This document shows, in pieces, positions 10,956-21,041 of a stretch of 64,000 bases of DNA (positions within the stretch are counted from its first letter, which is position 1; each line of letters starts with the position of its first letter). This DNA comes from Desulfolutivibrio sulfoxidireducens (GTDB lineage: Bacteria > Desulfobacterota > Desulfovibrionia > Desulfovibrionales > Desulfovibrionaceae): assembly GCF_013376475.1 (NCBI RefSeq), contig NZ_CP045508.1:3632001-3696000 (forward strand), given 5' to 3'. Both the position numbers and the translations under genes were made by a program. Under the pieces are notes generated by a model, which had not been told where the DNA came from, did not search any database, and saw only the letters and a list, made by a program, of their open reading frames with translations.

Positions 10956-11564
10956 TCAGGCGATTCCTCGTAAATACGCTTTAATCTCTTCCATTATCTG
11001 TTGTGGTGTTTCGGCCCTCTCGGCGCATTTGCTTGCCCAACCCCGACCAGGATGAAGAGTATCCCACTTAGGACGCGCGCCTTCATACCGCCCTTTACCT
11101 GGGTCATGGTTTCCGAAACCATCGATGAGTTTATTCCAAATCGGCGCGAATTTGGCAATTAGCAGAGATTCGCCCAAGGGAATCCAGATATCGTCCACCA
11201 CCAAAAAGCGGCAAAAGAAATGCTCAATTCGTAAGTTTTCAGCGGCGTTCACGCTTTCAGCATGTTCTTGTAAGCGCTTATACAGAGCCATGCCGGGCTC
11301 GGCATCCAAGCCGAAGTTTCCTTTCCTCGCGCCGGGGGGAACGGCTTTTCCCACATAAATGGGAGCTTCAAATTTACCATTTATGTTCTTCGCCGCCAGC
11401 GGGTTATACGCCTCAAAATCGCCCGTGTAATAAATGGCGTAGATGCCCGCGCCGTTGAATGATTCCAATCCGCTCAAAGGATGCACCGCTCTTTCCAGCA
11501 TGGCGTCCGCCACGCTGCCCCCAAGGTTCATTTTATCGAGAGGATTGTAAGGCTTTATATCCAT
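10956..11564 (-). CDS. Eco29kI-like GIY-YIG restriction endonuclease
   Basis: The 202-residue product matches the Eco29kI family of type II restriction enzymes, which use a GIY-YIG nuclease fold. The expected catalytic elements are visible in order: GIYAIYY, then PIYVGKA (the two tyrosines), YKRLQEHAESV (arginine and histidine), GESLLIAKFAPIWN (glutamate and asparagine). R.Eco29kI is known to cut CCGCGG; the same specificity here is an inference. Its ATG overlaps the methylase stop (ATGA), so it is made from the methylase message. G+C content is clearly lower than in the flanking genes. It is the last gene of the island operon and runs into the left 67-bp repeat terminator. Confidence 0.88.
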   Translation of the reverse strand: MDIKPYNPLDKMNLGGSVADAMLERAVHPLSGLESFNGAGIYAIYYTGDFEAYNPLAAKNINGKFEAPIYVGKAVPPGARKGNFGLDAEPGMALYKRLQEHAESVNAAENLRIEHFFCRFLVVDDIWIPLGESLLIAKFAPIWNKLIDGFGNHDPGKGRYEGARPKWDTLHPGRGWASKCAERAETPQQIMEEIKAYLRGIA

Positions 11565-12769
11565 CAGGCGGCCCGCGTCATCTTGGCTATAAGTTTTTTG
11601 GTTTCAGCTTCAATCAATTTTTCCGCGATGCTGCCCGCCATAATGCGGGCGAGAGCCACCGGGACAGCATTGCCAAGCTGGCGCATGGTTTCCGTCCATG
11701 AACCGTGAAAAACATACGTATCAGGGAATGTTTGCAGGCGGGCGGATTCCCTGACCGTGAAGTACCGTGCCTTGCCGGTCGGTATGACCAGCATGTTTTC
11801 CCCTCCGGGAACGCCGTGGTCACCGGCTTTAAGCGTCTTAGCGGGGAAATCCAAAGGACTTCCGGTGTGCCCAGCGTAAATCCTCGCTCCCGGCTGAAAA
11901 ATATGGTTACCGTGCATCGCGGCGGCTTTTTTATCCTGAGGGTCGGGCAAGCCTTGCAGCGCGTCCCGCACGGTGAGCCACGGCCTATCCAAAGGCGCGG
12001 CATCGATTCCGCGTAATTTTTCTATGCGGGTTTTATGTTTGGCGTCCAGGTTGCCACGTTCCTTACGGCTTACTTTGTGGCGATCCCAATACTCACCACT
12101 TACCCATTGAGCATAAATCAAGCCGTCTAAGGAGTGGGTCGTTTCAGGGAAAGACCAGCGGATTCCTAAATCATGGCGAAATCCCACAATAAACACTCGC
12201 TCACGACGTTGCGGAATGCCGTAATCGGCGGCATTCACCACTCGGCAAACCACGTCATAAGTGAGCCCTTGCACTTTACCGGAAGTTTTTTCTTTTTCTA
12301 GACGGGCAAGGTGTTCCATCCAGCCTTCTTTAGGGAGACGCACTAGCTCTGGATAGCTCAGTTGCAGGATGGTATATTGCAAATAGTTGGTGAACGCCGC
12401 CCTGGTGAGTCCTTTGACGTTCTCCATAAGGAAGGCTTTGGGCTGTAAACGTCGCACGGTATCAATGGCGGTGGGAAACATATCCCGTTTGTCGGAGTAG
12501 GCTCTGTGCTTTCCGCCAAGGGAAAACGGCTGGCAAGGTGGGCCACCAGCAACAAGGTCAACGCCCTTGATGGTGGAAAAATCAAACAGGCGCACGTCTT
12601 GCTCGTGCAAAGGCCAATCCACCACCAGCGGGTTCTGTCTCTGTTGGTTTTCGCGGATGGTATCGCACGCCCATTTATCCCATTCTATGACCGCATCGGG
12701 AGTGAATCCGGCCAAGGATGCCCCTAAGGCCAACCCTCCGGCTCCAGCGAACAGTTCAACAGATCTCAT
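11564..12769 (-). CDS. DNA (cytosine-5) methyltransferase of the RM island
   Basis: This modification enzyme of a type II restriction-modification system methylates C5 of cytosine in the recognition site. The 401-residue protein has motif I (ELFAGAGGLALG), motif IV with the catalytic cysteine (GGPPCQPFS), motif VI (ENVKG), motif VIII (RRERVF), a target-recognition region of about 120 residues and the late motif RQLGNAVPV. It lies between vsr (15 bp upstream) and the endonuclease (4-bp overlap). The order vsr, methylase, endonuclease means the protective enzyme is translated before the toxic one. Lower G+C than the host genes suggests recent transfer. Confidence 0.95.
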   Translation of the reverse strand: MRSVELFAGAGGLALGASLAGFTPDAVIEWDKWACDTIRENQQRQNPLVVDWPLHEQDVRLFDFSTIKGVDLVAGGPPCQPFSLGGKHRAYSDKRDMFPTAIDTVRRLQPKAFLMENVKGLTRAAFTNYLQYTILQLSYPELVRLPKEGWMEHLARLEKEKTSGKVQGLTYDVVCRVVNAADYGIPQRRERVFIVGFRHDLGIRWSFPETTHSLDGLIYAQWVSGEYWDRHKVSRKERGNLDAKHKTRIEKLRGIDAAPLDRPWLTVRDALQGLPDPQDKKAAAMHGNHIFQPGARIYAGHTGSPLDFPAKTLKAGDHGVPGGENMLVIPTGKARYFTVRESARLQTFPDTYVFHGSWTETMRQLGNAVPVALARIMAGSIAEKLIEAETKKLIAKMTRAA

Positions 12770-12784
12770 CCGCGTGTCCCGTGT

Positions 12785-13204
12785 TTACTTTCGTGCCGAG
12801 CCATCAAGAAAGGCACGAATAGTCTTTTGTAAGGCTATTTCATCCCGAAGCATGCATTCCCAAATGACCAGGATATTCCAACCCTGTTCCCGCAATTTGG
12901 CTTGGTTTATTATGTCGCGTTCCCGGTTGCCTTCCAGCTTTGGAAGCCAAAAATCAAGGCGGGATTTTGGAAACCGCCTGCCATTGGGACAATCGTGCCG
13001 GTGCCAGTAACAACCATGCACAAAAATCACGGCGTGATATTTTGGCAATACAATGTCCGGTTTGCCCGGAAGGCCTTTCCTTTGGAGCCGGAACCGGTAG
13101 CCCATGTGATGCAGGAGGGAACGCACGGCTTTTTCCGGCCTCGTGTTGCGCCCCTTCACCTGGGCCATCACCCAACTGCGCTTTTCCGGGCTGACAGAAT
13201 CCAT
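12785..13204 (-). CDS. vsr: Very short patch repair endonuclease Vsr
   Basis: Vsr nicks beside T:G mismatches that arise when 5-methylcytosine deaminates, so it protects the methylated sites of the linked methylase. The 139-residue protein has the family start (VSPEKRSWVMAQVKGRNT), the conserved GKPDIVLPKY and VFVHGCYWHRHDC segments with the zinc and active-site residues, and WNILVIWECML near the end. No Shine-Dalgarno sequence lies close to the ATG, while a -35/-10 pair ends eight bases before it, so the message may be leaderless. It is the first gene of the island operon. Confidence 0.93.
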   Translation of the reverse strand: MDSVSPEKRSWVMAQVKGRNTRPEKAVRSLLHHMGYRFRLQRKGLPGKPDIVLPKYHAVIFVHGCYWHRHDCPNGRRFPKSRLDFWLPKLEGNRERDIINQAKLREQGWNILVIWECMLRDEIALQKTIRAFLDGSARK

Positions 13205-13505: not shown

Positions 13506-14561
13506 TTACGCGCTTTCCACGGCCTCCGCGGGAGCCCGCCTGGCCTTCCACATGCTGCCCAGGATGATCACCGCGCCGATCACAAGGGCCGCGCACATGA
13601 AGACGAAGCTGACCTTGTCCATGATCCATATCGTGTTCTCGGACAGATCCATGATCCCCAGCTTGGCTAGGTACTTGGGCACGGCGATGCCCCGGCTCAC
13701 GGCCACCACCAGCATGATCACGGCCATGACGATCTTGATCATATGCTCGCGCACATAGGTGGTGCCGATGGCCCCGAGCTGCACGCCCAGGAGCGACCCG
13801 CCCAGGATGATCAGCACCAGGCGGATGTCCACCATGCCCTGCATGGCCCAGTTGATGGACCCGAACAGGCCCATGGTGAAGGCGACGACCAACTCCGTGG
13901 CCGAGGACACGAGGCTCGAGGCCCCGAGCACGTAGATCATGCCCGGCACGCCGATGAACCCGCCCACCGCGATGGTGGCCGCCAGCATCCCGGTGGCGAA
14001 CCCGACCGGAACCGTGAACCAGAACGAGACGCGAATCCCGGAGGTCTTGAAGGTCATCATCGGCCACAGGTTGATGGACTGGACCCGGCGGGCCAGCGGG
14101 GCCACCTGTTCGCTCCCGCCCCGGCGCGAGGTGGTGATGGCGTCGCGCAGGACATAGCCGCCCACGATGACCAACACGGCCACGAAGGACAGACTCACGT
14201 ACAGATCCGAACCGGCCTGGCCCCACTGGCTCAAAATGAAGTTTTGCAGCTTGATGCCCACCTGCACGCCGACCCCGGCCGAGATGGCCATGACCAGCCC
14301 CAGCTTGATGTCCACCTGGCCGTACTTGAAGCGCTTGATGGCCCCGACCAGGGCCTTGGGGAATTTGTGACACATGTTGCTGGCCACAGCCACGGTGCCC
14401 GGAACCCCCAGGCTCATCATGCCGGGCGTGAGCACGAAGGCCCCGCCGGAACCGATGAAACCGCTGACCAAACCGCCTATGAACCCCACAATGAACAGGA
14501 ACGTGATGTTCTCCGGAGTCAGGGCGATGAACTTGCTGGCGTCAAGAAGAAGCGTATCCAT
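13506..14561 (-). CDS. TauE/SafE-family anion exporter
   Basis: TauE/SafE proteins are membrane carriers implicated in export of sulfite, sulfoacetate or other small anions. The 351-residue product has about eight hydrophobic spans and both family repeats: GFIGGLVSGFIGSGGAFVLTP near residue 30 and, in the second half, ATIAVGGFIGVPGMIYVLG. An N-terminal loop with SNMCHKFPKALVG is also typical. It is the last gene of a minus-strand cluster with a small membrane protein (25 bp upstream), a stress-protein-like gene and a 59-residue protein. The substrate is not determined by sequence; sulfite would be sensible in a sulfate reducer. Confidence 0.88.
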   Translation of the reverse strand: MDTLLLDASKFIALTPENITFLFIVGFIGGLVSGFIGSGGAFVLTPGMMSLGVPGTVAVASNMCHKFPKALVGAIKRFKYGQVDIKLGLVMAISAGVGVQVGIKLQNFILSQWGQAGSDLYVSLSFVAVLVIVGGYVLRDAITTSRRGGSEQVAPLARRVQSINLWPMMTFKTSGIRVSFWFTVPVGFATGMLAATIAVGGFIGVPGMIYVLGASSLVSSATELVVAFTMGLFGSINWAMQGMVDIRLVLIILGGSLLGVQLGAIGTTYVREHMIKIVMAVIMLVVAVSRGIAVPKYLAKLGIMDLSENTIWIMDKVSFVFMCAALVIGAVIILGSMWKARRAPAEAVESA

Positions 14562-14585: not shown

Positions 14586-14888
14586 CTAGGCGTTGAGGGT
14601 GGCCCGAACGCGGGGACGGGCGACGGGTTGCTGCGTGGTCCGGACGTCGGCGCGCTTCTGCTTGGCCGTGATGCCCAGACAGGCCCACAGGTTGTTGGCG
14701 AATGAGCCGTGGACCCAGGAAACGAGAAAAACCGTGGCAATGGGTCCGGCCGCCCACAGGGCGCCCTGGGCGAACCGGGCCGCGATGGCGTCGGCAAAGG
14801 AGAAAACCCCGGCGTACAGCGCCACGGTGGCCAGCCCGTAGGCTACCGTCTTTTTTACCGGCTTCGCGGCCGTTTGCACATGAGCCAT
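14586..14888 (-). CDS. Small membrane protein paired with the TauE gene
   Basis: The 100-residue protein has two hydrophobic spans (around VAYGLATVALYAGVFSFADAI and LWAAGPIATVFLVSWVHG) and a basic C-terminus (KRADVRTTQQPVARPRVR). No domain is recognised. The ATG at 14888 is preceded by GGAGGAACGGATC, which favours it over an ATG five codons upstream. It sits 25 bp before the TauE gene, so it may be an accessory subunit of that carrier. A 217-bp upstream gap contains a 32-bp palindrome that could control this gene pair. Confidence 0.7.
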   Translation of the reverse strand: MAHVQTAAKPVKKTVAYGLATVALYAGVFSFADAIAARFAQGALWAAGPIATVFLVSWVHGSFANNLWACLGITAKQKRADVRTTQQPVARPRVRATLNA

Positions 14889-15039
14889 GATCCGTTCCTC
14901 CATGAGTTTTCACCCCCCTCGGGGCGTTTTATCCAAAAATGACATCCCCTTCCGGGGACCTGCGTCGCAAGAGAAATCCAGGCCATGCCGAGGCGCGGAT
15001 CGTGTTGCGCCCCTTGAAAAAATCCGCCCGCATTTTTTA

Positions 15040-15105: not shown

Positions 15106-15696
15106 CTAGGACACGGTAAACACCGCGGCCGGGGCCGTGTCGCCGATGCCATCGGCGTCGCCTGGGTCGCTCAGGATGAGCTCCACCCGGTGCAGCCCGT
15201 CGCTGACGGCCCGCACGGCCTGCTCCGGATCCCCGAAATAGACCATGTGCCCGGCCTCGACTCCCAGCTCCACGGCCCGCAGGATCCAGGGTCGCACGGC
15301 GTTCGAGGCCGCCAAGGCGAAGGATTCGCGGAGGTAGCATTCGATCTTTGCGCCCCCGTCGTCCCGGGCCCGGCCAACGCTCAGAAAGACCAGGCCGTAC
15401 CCCAGCCGCCCGGCCAGTTGCAGGGCGTATTCGGCCAGCCTGGCCGTGAACAGGCGCTCGCGGCCAAGGACGATGATCCGTTTCCTCCCCGCGCCCCTGC
15501 GGGCGATGACCCGCTCGGCCAGGAGAAGCTCGCCGGACTCGGCCAGGGACAGGGCCTCGGCGTAATCGTCCAGGCCGTCGCGCAGTCCCGGACGGTCCAC
15601 CCGCACCCCCTTCGGGGGCCTTGGACCGAACCCCAGCCGGCCGGCGGCCTTTTTGGGGATCATCCCTTTTTTGACATCGGAACGGCTGCCGGACAT
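15106..15696 (-). CDS. UspA-like nucleotide-binding protein
   Basis: The 196-residue soluble protein has an approximately 70-residue lead, then a domain resembling universal stress proteins: a first strand and helix KRIIVLGRERLFTARLAEYALQLAGR, a strand LVFLSVG and a later strand pattern VELILSDPG. The ATP-binding glycine motif of canonical UspA is not evident, so nucleotide binding is uncertain. It starts four bases after the 59-residue gene and heads toward the small membrane protein and TauE genes. The cluster is divergent from the receiver-Lon operon. Confidence 0.55.
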   Translation of the reverse strand: MSGSRSDVKKGMIPKKAAGRLGFGPRPPKGVRVDRPGLRDGLDDYAEALSLAESGELLLAERVIARRGAGRKRIIVLGRERLFTARLAEYALQLAGRLGYGLVFLSVGRARDDGGAKIECYLRESFALAASNAVRPWILRAVELGVEAGHMVYFGDPEQAVRAVSDGLHRVELILSDPGDADGIGDTAPAAVFTVS

Positions 15697-15920: not shown

Positions 15921-15936
15921 AACAAAGGCCGTGCCA
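15921..15936 (-). promoter_or_regulatory. Sigma54-like promoter of the TauE cluster
   Basis: Read on the minus strand, TGGCACGGCCTTTGTT has a perfect -24 element (TGGCACG) and a near-match -12 element (TTGTT instead of TTGCA) at the correct spacing. The expected start site is near 15910, some 30 bp before the 59-residue gene. An inverted repeat 75-175 bp upstream would serve as the activator site. Confidence 0.55.
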
Positions 15937-16009: not shown

Positions 16010-16111
16010 CGGACGTTGCAATATCGAACACAAAAGCGTAGAAAAAGGGTATCACATGGAAATAAAAGGTAAATATTTGGCAAAGGCTACTGTTCGTTTT
16101 TGCAACGTCCG
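16010..16111. promoter_or_regulatory. Inverted-repeat pair, candidate activator-binding sites
   Basis: A 21-bp sequence at 16010-16030 recurs in inverted orientation at 16091-16111 with 19 of 21 positions equal; the shared core is GGACGTTGCAA followed by CGAACA. A shorter related element, GTTGCAATCG, lies at 15901-15910. The pair is in the divergent gap between the TauE cluster and the receiver-Lon operon, at typical enhancer distance from the sigma54-like promoter on the minus strand. Confidence 0.6.
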
Positions 16112-16159
16112 TTCGTTCCCGCAACACGCCGCATCGAGCAAGGGACCCGGAGGGAGGCC

Positions 16160-18217
16160 ATGATTTTTTTTCGAAAGACGGAGGAGGACCGCCAGTCCCC
16201 GCCCGCCCCCGAGGGCCTGCGCGAGCGCGCGGCGGCCGCCGCCCTGCCCGAGGCCGTCCGGACGGCCGTGAACACCGAGCTTTCCAGGCTGGCCAACACC
16301 GATCCCTCGGCCGCCGAATACGCCATCTCCCACGCCTATGTGGAGCTGGTTCTGGCCCTGCCCTGGGAGAGCGTCACCCCGGACAACCTGGACCTGGCAA
16401 GGGCCGAGGCGGTCCTGGACGAGGGCCATGCCGGGCTTGGCCAGATCAAGGACCGCATCCTGGAGCACCTTTCCTCCCGGACCATGCGCCAGTCCCGCCA
16501 GGCCTGGATCCTGGTGGTGGACGACGAGCCCATCGCCCGGGAAAACCTGCGCCACGTGCTGGCCCGCGAGGGCTACCGGGTGGAGACGGCCGAAAACGGC
16601 CAGACGGCGCTTGAACGGGTGCGCCGCTTCGAGTTCGACCTGATCGTCACCGACCTCAAGATGGATCGCATGGACGGGCTGCAACTGCTCGAACAGGCCA
16701 AAAAGGTCTCCCCGGGCACCAAGATCATGATCGTCACCGGCTACGCCACCGTGGACACGGCCGTGCGGGCCCTAAAGACCGGGGCGGCGCACTACCTGCC
16801 CAAGCCCATCGACCTGGACGAACTGCGGACCTCGGTGCGGACCATCCTGGCCGATCGGGACGCGGGGCTGGCCTCGCGCTCGCCCATCCTGTGCTTCGTC
16901 GGGCCGCCCGGGGTGGGCAAGACCTCGGTGGGCATGGCCATCGCCAAGGCCATGGGCCGGAAGTTCACCCGCATCTCCCTGGCCGATCTGCGCGACGACG
17001 CCGAGCTTCGCGGCCATCGCCGGACCTACGTGGGGGCCTTGCCCGGCCGGGTGATCGGGGCCCTGCGGGATCTTGGCGTGCGCAACCCAGTGTTTATGCT
17101 CGACGAGGTGGACAAGATCGGCCGGGACGTCAAAGGCGACCCGGCCCAGGCCCTGCTCGAGATCCTGGACCCGGAGCAGAACGCCCGGTTCGTGGACCGC
17201 TACCTGGAGGTCCCCTTCGACCTCTCGGGGGTGTTTTTCATCGCCACGGCCAACTCCACCGAGCGTCTGGCCGGCCCGATCCTGGACCGCATGGAGGTGG
17301 TGCCCTTTTCGGGATACGCCGAGGACGAGAAGGTGGAGATCGCCGCCCGCTTCCTGGTGCCGCGCCAACTGCGCGAGCACGGCCTGACCCATCCCTTTCC
17401 GGAGTTCACGGAGGGGGCGCTGCGGCGCATCATCCGCGACTACACCAACGAGGCCGGGGTGCGGGGGCTGGAGCGGGAGATCGCCCGGGTGTGCCGCAAG
17501 ATCGCCCGGGTATGCCTGACCGAGGGCAAAAGCGGTTTCGAGGCCAGCGTCGAGCCCGAACTGGCCGCCGCCCTGCTCGGCCCCAGGCGGTTCGCCCACG
17601 AGGCCGCGGCCCGGGGGGCGCGGCCGGGAACGGCCTGGGGGCTGGTATGGTCCGAGGCCGGAGGGGAGATCGTGTCCGTGGAGGTCTCCCGGATGCGCGG
17701 GGCCAGCCGGCTTCTGCTCACCGGGTCGCTGGGCGAGGTGCTCAAGGAATCGGGGCAGATCGCCCTAAGCCACATCCGGGGCAACGCCGTGGATCTGGGC
17801 GTGGACCCGGGCTTTTTCGCCGGCCACGACATCCACATCCACATCCCGGCCGGAGGCGTGTCCAAGGACGGCCCCTCGGCCGGCCTGACCATTGCCGTGG
17901 CCCTTTTTTCCCTGCTCACGGGACGTCCGACGCCCCCGGAGGTGGCCTTTTCCGGGGAAATCTCCCTTTCGGGGCGTGTGCTTCGGGTCGGGGGGATACG
18001 CGAGAAGCTCCTGGCGGCGGTCCGGGCCGGGATCAAGAAGGTGGTCCTGCCCGAGGAGAACGCCGCCGACATCGAGGTGCTGCGCCGGACCATGACCGCC
18101 ATGCCCGAGATCGCGCTCATCGCCGAGGTGGACCAGGCCTTCGCGACCGTCTTCGATCCCGTTGCCGGGGAGGCCGCGCCGCCGCCGCACGCCGCCGAGG
18201 CAAAGGGCCAGCCATGA
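16160..18217 (+). CDS. Lon-type protease with an internal response-regulator receiver domain
   Basis: The 685-residue protein is a rearranged Lon. It lacks the roughly 200-residue Lon N-terminal substrate domain and begins with the helical segment that normally follows (about residues 30-105, VELVLALPW, GLGQIKDRILEHL). Then comes a complete receiver domain (about 115-230) with acidic pair D121-D122, phospho-acceptor D165, T193 and K215. The AAA+ module follows directly (Walker A GPPGVGKT 248-255, Walker B VFMLDEVDK 311-319), and the S16 protease domain has S573 (DGPSAG) and K616 (GGIREK). The receiver replaces the short linker that in ordinary Lon joins the helical segment to the ATPase. GGAGGGAGG precedes the ATG at 16160. 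It overlaps the kinase gene by 4 bp. Phosphorylation probably gates proteolysis; this is inferred. Confidence 0.93.
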   Translation: MIFFRKTEEDRQSPPAPEGLRERAAAAALPEAVRTAVNTELSRLANTDPSAAEYAISHAYVELVLALPWESVTPDNLDLARAEAVLDEGHAGLGQIKDRILEHLSSRTMRQSRQAWILVVDDEPIARENLRHVLAREGYRVETAENGQTALERVRRFEFDLIVTDLKMDRMDGLQLLEQAKKVSPGTKIMIVTGYATVDTAVRALKTGAAHYLPKPIDLDELRTSVRTILADRDAGLASRSPILCFVGPPGVGKTSVGMAIAKAMGRKFTRISLADLRDDAELRGHRRTYVGALPGRVIGALRDLGVRNPVFMLDEVDKIGRDVKGDPAQALLEILDPEQNARFVDRYLEVPFDLSGVFFIATANSTERLAGPILDRMEVVPFSGYAEDEKVEIAARFLVPRQLREHGLTHPFPEFTEGALRRIIRDYTNEAGVRGLEREIARVCRKIARVCLTEGKSGFEASVEPELAAALLGPRRFAHEAAARGARPGTAWGLVWSEAGGEIVSVEVSRMRGASRLLLTGSLGEVLKESGQIALSHIRGNAVDLGVDPGFFAGHDIHIHIPAGGVSKDGPSAGLTIAVALFSLLTGRPTPPEVAFSGEISLSGRVLRVGGIREKLLAAVRAGIKKVVLPEENAADIEVLRRTMTAMPEIALIAEVDQAFATVFDPVAGEAAPPPHAAEAKGQP

Positions 18218-19686
18218 ACATCCGCCAGAAAATCGTCCTGAGCATCTTTGTGGCCTTCGCGGGCATGGGGCTTCTGGGGAGCATCTCCTACGACCACCTG
18301 CTGCGCATCGGCGAGGCCCTGCGCCTGGCCGAGGTGGTGGACGACCTGAGCAACGACATTCTCGAGGTCCGGCGCTACGAAAAAAACTACCTGCTCTACG
18401 CCATGGACGAGGACTACCGGGAAAGCCTGCTTTACGTGGACAAAAGCCTGGACATCATCCGCGGCAGCATTGCCCCGTCCGGGGACGGACAGGCCGCCGC
18501 CGAGGGCGAGGCCGACTTCGCCGGGCTGCGCGCCCAACTCGAAGGCTATCGTCGGACCTTCGGGGATCTGGCCGCCATGAGCGGAAAAACGCCCCCGGAG
18601 GCCGTGGAGAAGGCCCAGGCCACGCTTCGCGAGCAGGGCAAGGGGCTGGTGGGCACCTCCCGGCGCATCAAGGAGGTCCAGCGCGACGGCATCCTGCGCA
18701 TCGTGGACAACCTCAAGCGGCAACTGCTTCTCTCCACCCTGGCCCTGATTTTCCTGGGCCTGGGTTTTTCCTGGGTGGTGGGACGGCGGATCATCACCGC
18801 CCTGCACCTGATCGAGAACACCACCCGCCAGGTGGCCAAGGGCCATTTCCAGGCCATCGACCTGCCGGCCAGCCGGGACGAGACCCGGGACGTGGTCAAG
18901 GCCTTAAACCGCATGATCGTGGAACTGGACAAGCGGCAAAACCAGCTCCTGCAGGAAAAAAAGCTGGCCTCCCTGGGCGTTCTGACCTCGGGCATCGCCC
19001 ACCAGCTCAACAACCCGTTAAATAACATCTCCACCTCCTGCCAGATCCTGCGCGAGGAGGACATCGGCAAAAACGACGCCTTTGTCGGACAGATGCTGGA
19101 CAACATCCACCACGAGGTCCTGCGCTCCCGGGACATCGTCAAGGGCCTTCTGGAATTCTCCCGGGAAAACGAGTTTTCCATAAAGCCCACCCGGCTGGCC
19201 GAGGTCGTGGAACGCTCGGTGGGGCTGGTGGCCGCGCAGCTTCCGGCCGACGTGGACATCGCCCGCCGGGTGCCGGACGATCTGTGCGTGCCCATGGACC
19301 CCCAGCGCATGCAGGAGGTCTTTTTGAACCTCTTTCTCAACGCGGCCCAGGCCATCGGGAACACCCCGGGGACCATCACCGTATCCGCCGGGCGCGACCC
19401 GGAGGCCGGCCAGGCCGTGATCCGGGTGGAGGACACCGGCCGGGGCATCGTGCCCGAACACCTGGGTCGGGTCTTCGATCCCTTCTTCACCTTGAAGGAG
19501 GTGGGCAAGGGCACGGGGCTTGGGCTTTCGGTGGTTTTCGGCATCGTCAAGAAACACGGCGGGACCATCGTCGCCGAGAGCGAACCCGGCCAGGGCGCGG
19601 CCTTCATCATCCGCCTGCCCCTTGGCGCGCCGGCCTGCCCCCCCGATGACGTCGAAGACGGCCCCAAGGAGGTGCCGATCGCGTGA
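18214..19686 (+). CDS. Membrane histidine kinase with helical periplasmic sensor
   Basis: The 490-residue kinase has a membrane helix at about residues 7-27, a helical extracytoplasmic domain of about 140 residues with the HBM-like segment EVRRYEKNYLL, a second membrane helix at about 170-190, a HAMP region, an NtrB-like H-box (GIAHQLNNPLNNIS, H263) and an ATPase domain with N, G1 (DTGRGI) and G2 (GKGTGLGLS) boxes. Its ATG overlaps the Lon-receiver stop (ATGA) and its stop overlaps the regulator start (GTGA), so all three are co-translated. It probably phosphorylates both flanking receivers, which share the VDDEPIAR-x-NL-x-H start. The signal sensed is unknown. Confidence 0.92.
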   Translation: MNIRQKIVLSIFVAFAGMGLLGSISYDHLLRIGEALRLAEVVDDLSNDILEVRRYEKNYLLYAMDEDYRESLLYVDKSLDIIRGSIAPSGDGQAAAEGEADFAGLRAQLEGYRRTFGDLAAMSGKTPPEAVEKAQATLREQGKGLVGTSRRIKEVQRDGILRIVDNLKRQLLLSTLALIFLGLGFSWVVGRRIITALHLIENTTRQVAKGHFQAIDLPASRDETRDVVKALNRMIVELDKRQNQLLQEKKLASLGVLTSGIAHQLNNPLNNISTSCQILREEDIGKNDAFVGQMLDNIHHEVLRSRDIVKGLLEFSRENEFSIKPTRLAEVVERSVGLVAAQLPADVDIARRVPDDLCVPMDPQRMQEVFLNLFLNAAQAIGNTPGTITVSAGRDPEAGQAVIRVEDTGRGIVPEHLGRVFDPFFTLKEVGKGTGLGLSVVFGIVKKHGGTIVAESEPGQGAAFIIRLPLGAPACPPDDVEDGPKEVPIA

Positions 19687-21041
19687 ACGATCTCCCCCCG
19701 CAGATCCTGGTGGTGGACGACGAGCCCATCGCCCGGGCCAACCTGGCCCATATCTTCTCCCGCCGGGGGGCCCAGGTGACCGTGGCCGCAAACGGCCGGG
19801 AGGCCCTGGCCGAGCTTGAAAAAAGCGAGTTCGACCTGGTGATCACCGATCTGATCATGGAGGAGGTGGACGGGCTGGCCGTTCTGGAGCGGACCAAGAC
19901 CCTGTGGCCGGACACGGAGGTGGTGGTGGTCACGGGCTATCCCACGGTGGAGACGGCGGTCACGGCCATGCGCCGGGGGGCCTACGACTATCTGGCCAAA
20001 CCCTACGGCATCGAGGAGGCCAGGCTTTTGGCCCAAAAGGCCATGGAAAAGCGCCGGCTGCGCCTGGAGGTCAAGACCCTGCGGGAGCGGCTGCGGGAGA
20101 ACCCGGATCCGTTGACCATCATCGGCCACTGCCCGGCCATGGAGCGCCTCAAGCGCACCGTGGCCCAGGTGGCGCCCACGGACTCCACAGTGCTGATCCT
20201 GGGGGAGACGGGCACGGGCAAGGAACTGGTGGCCCGGACCCTCCACCTCTTGAGCGCCCGGCGGGAGGAACGCTTCTTGGCCGTCAACTGCGGGGCGTTT
20301 AACGAGGAACTGCTGGAGAACGAGCTTTTCGGCCACGAGCCCGGGGCCTTCACCGGGGCCACGCGCCTCAAAAAGGGGCTCTTCGAGTCCGCGCCGGGCG
20401 GCACGCTGTTCCTCGACGAACTGGGGGAGACCTCGCCGGCCATGCAGGTCAAGCTCCTGCGCGTCCTACAGGAACGGGTCATCCGCCGGGTGGGCGGCTC
20501 CCGGGACATCCCTGTGGACGTGCGCATCGTCGCCGCCACCAACAAGGACGTCAAACGCGAGGTGGAGGCCGGCCGTTTCCGCCAGGACCTGTACTATCGC
20601 ATAAACGTCATCGTGCTGACCCTGCCGCCCCTGTCCGAGCGCCAGGAGGACATTCCCCTGTTGTGCCGTTTTTTCCTGGCCAAGATGGCCAAAAAGCTCG
20701 GCAAGCCCAATCTGACCCTGTCCGCCGAGGTGTACGAGACCCTGGCCCGCTATCCTTTTCCCGGCAACGTGCGCGAGCTTGAAAACATCATCGAGCGGGC
20801 CTCGATCATGGCCGACGGGGAGGTCATCGAGCCCCGGCACCTGCCGCCCGACCTAAGCGGCGCGCCGGTGCGGGTGGCCAGGCCGTGCGTCAACGAGCCC
20901 ATGACCCTGGAGGAGAACGAACGCCGGCACGTGGCCTGGGTGCTTGGCCACTGCGGGGGCAACCGCTCCAAGGCCGCGTCGGTTTTGGGCATCGACCGGG
21001 CCTCCCTGTGGCGCAAGATCAAGAAATTCGCCCTGGCCTGA
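19683..21041 (+). CDS. NtrC-family sigma54-dependent response regulator
   Basis: The 452-residue activator has a receiver domain (D56 phospho-acceptor in DLVITD, T84, K106), a sigma54-contacting AAA+ domain with Walker A GETGTGKE (174-181), the GAFTGA loop (221-226) and DELGE, and a Fis-type helix-turn-helix at the C-terminus (GGNRSKAASVLGIDRASLWRKIKK). All sigma54-activation elements are intact. The start is a GTG overlapping the kinase stop. Its receiver closely resembles the one inside the neighbouring Lon. Likely targets are the inverted repeats at 16010-16111 and the sigma54-like promoter at 15921-15936. Confidence 0.95.
   Translation: MNDLPPQILVVDDEPIARANLAHIFSRRGAQVTVAANGREALAELEKSEFDLVITDLIMEEVDGLAVLERTKTLWPDTEVVVVTGYPTVETAVTAMRRGAYDYLAKPYGIEEARLLAQKAMEKRRLRLEVKTLRERLRENPDPLTIIGHCPAMERLKRTVAQVAPTDSTVLILGETGTGKELVARTLHLLSARREERFLAVNCGAFNEELLENELFGHEPGAFTGATRLKKGLFESAPGGTLFLDELGETSPAMQVKLLRVLQERVIRRVGGSRDIPVDVRIVAATNKDVKREVEAGRFRQDLYYRINVIVLTLPPLSERQEDIPLLCRFFLAKMAKKLGKPNLTLSAEVYETLARYPFPGNVRELENIIERASIMADGEVIEPRHLPPDLSGAPVRVARPCVNEPMTLEENERRHVAWVLGHCGGNRSKAASVLGIDRASLWRKIKKFALA

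Follow-up and report, generated by a model that had tools for sequence, protein, structure and literature searches.

A Lon protease with an internal receiver domain, linked to a histidine kinase and an NtrC-type activator in Desulfolutivibrio sulfoxidireducens, as a candidate branched two-component system

The closest described counterparts of the locus analyzed here are DVU3303 to DVU3305 of Desulfovibrio vulgaris Hildenborough, which encode a Lon-containing response regulator, a kinase, and an NtrC-type regulator. Passages of the study that described them (Rajeev et al. 2011, PMC3333781) call them a “three-component system” and say of the Lon-containing response regulator that it “may require phosphorylation.” Here we describe a 64,000-nucleotide stretch of the Desulfolutivibrio sulfoxidireducens genome (NCBI RefSeq assembly GCF_013376475.1, contig NZ_CP045508.1, positions 3,632,001 to 3,696,000; hereafter, the window), in which genes of the same three kinds, for a receiver-Lon protease, a histidine kinase, and an NtrC-type activator, follow one another with a 4-base overlap at each junction. 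We consider it rather probable that they form a branched two-component system with two outputs, the activator and the receiver-Lon, in which phosphorylation gates Lon.

According to the same passages, the targets of DVU3305 are its own operon and DVU3302 to DVU3298, with further targets too, and orthologs are named in other Desulfovibrio, Thermodesulfovibrio, Thioalkalivibrio, and Dechloromonas (PMC3333781). In the portions seen, a 2015 paper relists the DVU3305 targets and gives its motif as GAFSGA (PMC4641369), and a 2023 mutant-fitness paper reports pairwise cofitness of >0.9 for DVU3303 to DVU3305, all three being detrimental in 6.25 mM chlorate, whereas DVU3299, a putative anion transporter and DVU3305 target, is important in chlorate (PMC10102598). 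The neighbors of the window trio resemble these targets, which comprise the trio's own operon and upstream genes including those for Usp-type and membrane proteins and the putative anion transporter; the window activator differs from DVU3305 in carrying GAFTGA, as read from its translation. From this architecture and neighborhood, we infer that the window trio is orthologous to DVU3303 to DVU3305. The kind of trio is therefore already known, and the sense of novelty conveyed by a first-pass annotation of the window, made from its letters alone, does not hold: the trio, its gene targets, and the idea of Lon phosphorylation were in print in 2011 (PMC3333781) and the cofitness in 2023 (PMC10102598), as far as the passages covered show. 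What we add is the distribution of the receiver-Lons, counts of their linkage, a docking helix shared by two receivers, a promoter and candidate activator sites, and an N-terminal motif.

Architecture and distribution of the receiver-Lon

The receiver-Lon gene (16160..18217, + strand) encodes 685 residues from an ATG at 16160 and has the architecture described for DVU3303. A Lon helical segment (residues 17 to 112; 16208..16495) is followed by a receiver domain (residues 117 to 226; 16508..16837; Pfam PF00072 Response_reg, E of 5.5e-32) with phospho-acceptor D165, an AAA+ ATPase (residues 244 to 381; 16889..17302; Pfam AAA), a Lon_lid (residues 406 to 456; Pfam), and an S16 protease domain with S573 and K616 (residues 467 to 663; 17558..18148; Pfam PF05362 Lon_C, E of 7.4e-63), all on the + strand. 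The receiver is thus inserted between the helical segment and SPILCFVGPPGVGKT, ahead of the AAA+ module. By TIGR00763 the protein is a LonA/S16 member (630.6 bits versus a cut-off of 608.05), with its Walker motifs and Ser-Lys dyad present. The first-pass annotation had read in it a phosphorylatable receiver, intact ATPase motifs with a Ser573/Lys616 dyad, and loss of the Lon N-terminal domain, and each of these readings was borne out. The response-regulator residues DD, D, T, and K are all present, at D121/D122, D165, T193, and K215; the catalytic residues are S573 and K616, within Pfam AAA and Lon_C matches; and no Lon N-domain family occurs among the Pfam matches of the protein, just 16 residues of which precede the helical segment.

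An AlphaFold model built with 39 sequences (mean predicted local distance difference test score [pLDDT] of 82.8; predicted template modeling score [pTM] of 0.76) has helices over residues 17 to 112, a receiver in which strands and helices alternate, and the Lon core, and Foldseek matched it to solved LonA structures (best E of 4.9e-51). None of the 60 best PDB sequence matches spans both parts; the best stretch is the Lon part or the receiver part alone.

Since it recurs in relatives, this architecture is not a product of chance. Using the window Lon as the query at an E value of 1e-155 or below, we obtained matches in 107 of 297 genomes of a class sample, in 48 of 395 genomes of a phylum sample (one of which, G305, covers the Lon part alone), and in 29 of 245 genomes of a phylum sample around a record titled Thermodesulfovibrionia/Nitrospirota; all were drawn from larger groups, and the class sample shares genomes with the phylum sample. 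No match at this threshold was found in 398 genomes of a betaproteobacterial phylum sample, which holds no positive control. Given the orthologs listed in 2011 for Thioalkalivibrio and Dechloromonas, receiver-Lons in that sample are either rare or more diverged.

For closer comparison we assembled 69 receiver-Lon loci (68 distinct, as L060 and L037 are one contig), namely, the window, 24 relatives, 4 loci of named organisms, 37 from the phylum sample, and 3 from the class sample. The relatives came from a sample of 59 genomes including the window's own, 25 of which have a receiver-Lon. A scan of named organisms yielded 80 loci, among which only L060 to L063 are receiver-Lons by profiles, the other 76 serving as an ordinary-Lon control. 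Among the 48 phylum matches, 3 were already in the set, 37 were added, and 8 were left out (G066 and the seven lowest scoring, including G305); the 107 class matches were taken in only where shared with the relatives sample, plus three more; and 20 of the 29 Nitrospirota-type matches were included. D121, D122, D165, and K215 are invariant in all 69 receiver-Lons, T193 is kept in 68 of 69, and the catalytic residues are kept in every protein that reaches them (S573 in 68 of 68, K616 in 67 of 67). The receiver-Lon thus occurs in two phyla and retains the residues for phosphorylation and catalysis.

Matches ending near residues 470 to 495 had raised the possibility that the protease half is lacking in one genus (g47). 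We rejected it: the proteins concerned (L204 to L206) are receiver-Lons with extra, longer insertions in the protease half, past which GPSAGL and the catalytic lysine are intact. In genome G000 (contig C1), besides the receiver-Lon, there are two strong Lon_C matches in long ordinary-Lon-like frames and two weak ones (near 1767195, 3511721, 123526, and 3540645).

The 16-residue leader opens with MIFFRK (16160..16177, + strand), an instance of an aromatic-basic pattern in which one to three residues lead into [FLIW][FW] and a basic residue comes within the next two. With starts picked by ribosome-binding score alone, the motif is found in 61 of 68 receiver-Lons but in none of 68 ordinary Lons, or in one of these when any start is allowed. 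It was noted in the receiver-Lons of the window, L036 to L063, L167 to L206, and L292 to L311 (in most of them, on a variable linker), and the stretch behind it varies in length and sequence. The motif may serve as a latch, contact the membrane, or tag the protein for docking; residues 1 to 12 have a pLDDT of <50 in the AlphaFold model, which neither backs nor excludes a latch. The divergently encoded Usp-like proteins of L053, L056, and L178 begin much like this motif, e.g., with MFFKK or MLDFFKK.

Linkage to the kinase and activator and a shared docking surface

The first-pass annotation had placed the kinase after Lon by a 4-base overlap and the activator after the kinase by a second one, and the coordinates (18214/18217 and 19683/19686) agree. 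The sensor histidine kinase (18214..19686, + strand; 490 residues) has a helical N-terminal half, a HAMP domain, a HisKA domain with H263, and a HATPase domain; its frame is open, and its ATG start at 18214 and its membrane topology were assigned by eye. No Pfam sensor family matched its sensor half, and a sequence search returned no credible solved relative of the sensor (best E of 0.007). A model from four sequences (pTM of 0.39) forms a helical bundle there, and most of the best 50 Foldseek rows matched the catalytic part; the sensor is probably helical and extracytoplasmic. The activator (19683..21041, + strand; 452 residues; GTG start) has a receiver (residues 8 to 112), a sigma-54 AAA+ domain (146 to 312), and HTH_8 (408 to 449).

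Linkage was counted by profile matches, which do not prove the orthology of each neighbor, in the 57 of 69 loci of at least 15 kb. In 51 of these 57 long loci (50 of 56 without the duplicate), a kinase and a receiver-sigma-54 activator both lie within the examined stretch. Ordinary Lon loci served as controls: both partners were found in 1 of 20 matched loci about 17 kb long, chosen by hand from same-order genomes also bearing a receiver-Lon, and in 0 of 37 from other organisms, each at least 15 kb long. The linkage in relatives, the absence of which the first-pass annotation had named as evidence against its reading, is therefore present. In the Nitrospirota-type loci, both partners were found in 14 of 20 and a TauE relative in 15 of 20. 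Gene order varies: among all 69 loci, 57 have both partners, with the activator on the same strand in 20 (within 2 kb in 14) and on the opposite strand in 37 (within 2 kb in 25), and farther away in 18. That the partners stay together despite such rearrangement argues for a functional link. Further, a kinase match of at least 263 bits was found in all 25 relatives with a receiver-Lon versus none of the 34 without one (248 bits at most), at a cut-off set after the data were seen.

The two receivers of the window are also closely similar, as had been noticed in the first pass: they share 52% identity over 107 residues, and among 90 other receiver matches in the genome with E values up to 1e-8, the Lon receiver matches the linked NtrC receiver best (114.5 bits; next, 91.0). 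We compared 42 of 57 receiver pairs, left after thinning at 80% identity, with a background of 46 receivers out of 145 receiver matches in this genome. In the alpha-1 docking helix, Lon receivers are on average about as identical to NtrC receivers (0.52) as they are to one another (0.53) or as NtrC receivers are among themselves (0.54), versus 0.18 for the background, whereas elsewhere Lon-NtrC identity falls below Lon-Lon identity (beta-2/alpha-2, 0.30 versus 0.42; alpha-3, 0.39 versus 0.52; alpha-5, 0.37 versus 0.42). According to its title, a structure with a rewired interface has V13, L14, I17, and N21 of RR468 changed (PDB 4jav). Of 42 Lon receivers, 37 fit a common pattern at three or more of the four corresponding docking positions, as do 40 of 42 NtrC receivers but none of 46 others. 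These positions are presumably I125, A126, N129, and V133 of the window Lon, if spacing is equal. On the kinase side, among the best kinases of 61 loci, 58 have NNPL(N/S)NI following the histidine and 42 have NNPLNNISTSCQ, compared with 0 of 19 other kinase frames there. In a receiver tree, the Lon receivers and linked NtrC receivers group together (130 of 131, plus 2 outsiders). A receiver protein with no other Pfam domain over the cut-off, encoded directly before the receiver-Lon gene in one locus (L047:10172-10735), groups with them too.

Taken at the sequence level, linkage, kinase co-occurrence, and the docking surface make it well supported that one kinase phosphorylates both receivers. 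The earlier suggestion that one kinase drives both transcription and proteolysis is supported as regards a shared kinase but not as regards its novelty. A shared docking helix would also suit a Lon receiver that is a phosphate sink tuning the activator beside a constitutive protease. We think this very improbable, as a sink has no need of fusion ahead of an AAA+ module, yet that fusion is seen in two phyla, where the ATPase and protease residues are kept equally well. It is also improbable, if somewhat less so, that the Lon receiver is a docking or dimerization platform and not a phospho-switch, using the alpha-4 face to pair with the NtrC receiver and so bringing the protease to the activator. 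In the beta-4/alpha-4 loop and alpha-4, Lon-NtrC identity (0.60) is indeed near Lon-Lon identity (0.70; background, 0.21), but alpha-4 serves homodimers too in other response regulators, and the invariant phosphorylation residues would be needless in a pure scaffold.

Divergent operon, putative promoter, and candidate activator sites

Upstream of the receiver-Lon gene, three genes on the opposite strand form a divergent operon: a Usp-like protein gene, first in the operon (15106..15696, − strand; 196 residues; relatives in 48 of 68 distinct loci), a small membrane-type protein gene (14586..14903, − strand; 105 residues; no Pfam match over the cut-off; relatives in 42 of 68), and a TauE/SafE-family transporter gene (13506..14561, − strand; 351 residues; Pfam PF01925, E of 5.2e-36; relatives in 43 of 68). 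Relatives of all three occur together in 35 of 68 distinct receiver-Lon loci. Of 5 relatives tested, 4 show a Usp similarity below the Pfam Usp cut-off (E of 0.0011 to 0.086), and the window copy has no match. The Usp-like and small membrane-type proteins are encoded in one open frame, as a fusion, in L168, L169, L173, L176 to L179, L182 to L185, L187, L190, L191, and L200. Beyond the operon, a putative cytosine-5 DNA methyltransferase gene adjoining one for a Vsr-type endonuclease was recognized by eye (11564-13204, − strand).

The intergenic region common to both operons holds a putative −24/−12 sigma-54 promoter core, TGGCACGGCCTTTG (TGGCAC-N5-TTG; 15923..15936, − strand), reading into the divergent operon, as well as three dyad-like GTTGC-N5-CGAAC candidate activator sites (16015..16029, + strand; 16092..16106, − strand; 16111..16125, − strand). 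A single core match in the 64-kb window is not significant alone, arising in 38 of 100 shuffles. TGGCAY-N5-TTG reads toward the divergent operon in 36 of 68 upstream regions and in none on the Lon strand (base-shuffle mean, 0.2), and it is this conservation of the predicted promoter of the divergent operon that is significant. Of 66 upstream regions, 47 contain the half site TGTTGCA (4.3 expected) and 24 the perfect dyad GTTGC-N5-GCAAC (about 0 expected), although the window upstream region has none of the latter. As the three dyad-like sites here fall within 111 bases and the whole 4.16-Mb genome has only five, the activator is probably dedicated to its own locus, unless weaker sites exist at other targets. 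Promoter and candidate sites are read from sequence, and binding is published for DVU3305.

The adjoining genes also bear on what Lon may degrade. In one alternative, phosphorylated receiver-Lon would destroy the activator, the kinase, or a divergent-operon product and so end the response. Such feedback would be in keeping with the many loci in which relatives of the divergent genes adjoin the receiver-Lon, and a system that lowers the transporter would account for regulators and transporter having opposite signs in chlorate (PMC10102598, in the part seen). However, destruction of the activator by Lon predicts opposite mutants, and the published cofitness, subject to polarity, is >0.9 (PMC10102598); we regard feedback as unlikely.

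Proposed mechanism and relation to known systems

In the branched system that we propose, the histidine kinase would phosphorylate the receivers of the activator and of Lon via one common docking surface. The phosphorylated activator would bind the sites between the operons and switch on the divergent Usp-like/membrane protein/TauE operon from its sigma-54 promoter, while the receiver ahead of the AAA+ module would replace the Lon N-domain as regulatory input, its phosphorylation altering ring assembly, ATPase activity, or the access of substrates and thereby confining the degradation of a dedicated protein to one signaling state. In NtrC-type proteins, the receiver controls AAA+ ring assembly. 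Because the receiver precedes the AAA+ module in both proteins, the simplest reading by analogy is that the Lon receiver may control the Lon ring as the NtrC receiver does its own, in place of the lost N-domain. We infer that phosphorylation gates Lon, with activation the favored direction. A more specific and rather doubtful extension is that an NtrC-type receiver was moved ahead of another AAA+ machine to do the same job, such that one kinase switches assembly of both the sigma-54 activator ring and the Lon ring, with the N-terminal aromatic-basic tail acting as a pseudo-substrate or latch at the Lon pore until phosphorylation. If that is true, this would be, to our knowledge, the first response regulator whose own ATP-dependent protease output is shown to be switched.

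Several observations weigh against the branched system. The kinase/NtrC pair is missing from the examined stretch in 6 of the 57 long loci, one of which (L047) is cut at the stretch end with a 378-bit kinase at its border. Second kinases in receiver-Lon genomes reach 262.5 bits, near the 263-bit cut-off. The clade of Lon and NtrC receivers has a support of 0.27, and the NtrC set is not a single clade. Common ancestry alone could yield a common docking helix and contributes to the likeness of receivers and kinases. Covariation between paired receivers (mean identity of 0.492 within a locus versus 0.474 across loci, above all 5,000 permutations) is not used as evidence: its top column (136) exchanges R for K, which may reflect base composition, and positions outside the docking set showed the excess as well, the docking set being marginal against random sets (p value of 0.055). 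Mutual information of the receivers with 42 kinases gave scattered pairs.

The literature contributes further points, some of them on this side. In the literature searched, we found no phosphotransfer or protease data for receiver-Lon systems, and no title or abstract opening reported receiver-Lon biochemistry, subscription journals lying mostly outside the search. The paper passages covered contain no test of whether phosphorylation controls proteolysis, and a term search of a 2008 survey of Lon architectures (PMC2605481) finds neither “receiver” nor “response regulator.” Transposon polarity could lie behind part of the published cofitness. An activator is expected to share the phenotype of the transporter it activates, and the chlorate signs misfit simple activation, the three regulators being detrimental and the target DVU3299 important (PMC10102598, in the part seen). 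The opposite signs could be explained by a proteolytic branch lowering the transporter, by polarity, or by other targets. The long loci without the pair, and the likeness that receivers of one genome can have, might also suggest gene neighbors without functional coupling. That explanation has next to no chance, being already disfavored by the linkage compared with controls, the kinase co-occurrence, the docking surface, and the published cofitness (PMC10102598).

With receiver and protease in one chain and a kinase apparently common with a transcription factor, a branched system of this kind could let one signal set both transcription and protein destruction. Since the architecture is kept in two phyla and likely targets adjoin it, a direct test of Lon switching with purified parts is possible.

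Among known systems, LonA proteases (TIGR00763; PDB 4ypl, 7p6u, and 6u5z) resemble the receiver-Lon in their AAA+ and S16 domains with catalytic motifs, which its predicted fold matches, but have an N-domain, whereas the receiver-Lon lacks one and has a receiver before the AAA+ module. Proteins of the NtrC1 type (PDB 1ny5, one of the PDB sequence matches of the receiver-Lon) likewise have a receiver directly ahead of an AAA+ module, but their output is a sigma-54 remodeller and not a protease. The linker from receiver to AAA+ module, by Pfam bounds, is about 17 residues in the receiver-Lon versus about 33 in the window activator, and the two receivers of the locus are close paralogs. Response-regulator control of proteolysis is known mainly via separate adaptors, such as RssB and CpdR, which act with ClpXP. 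The receiver-Lon is like these in that proteolysis would be under receiver control; it differs from the adaptor type in that its protease is Lon and that receiver and protease are joined in one chain.

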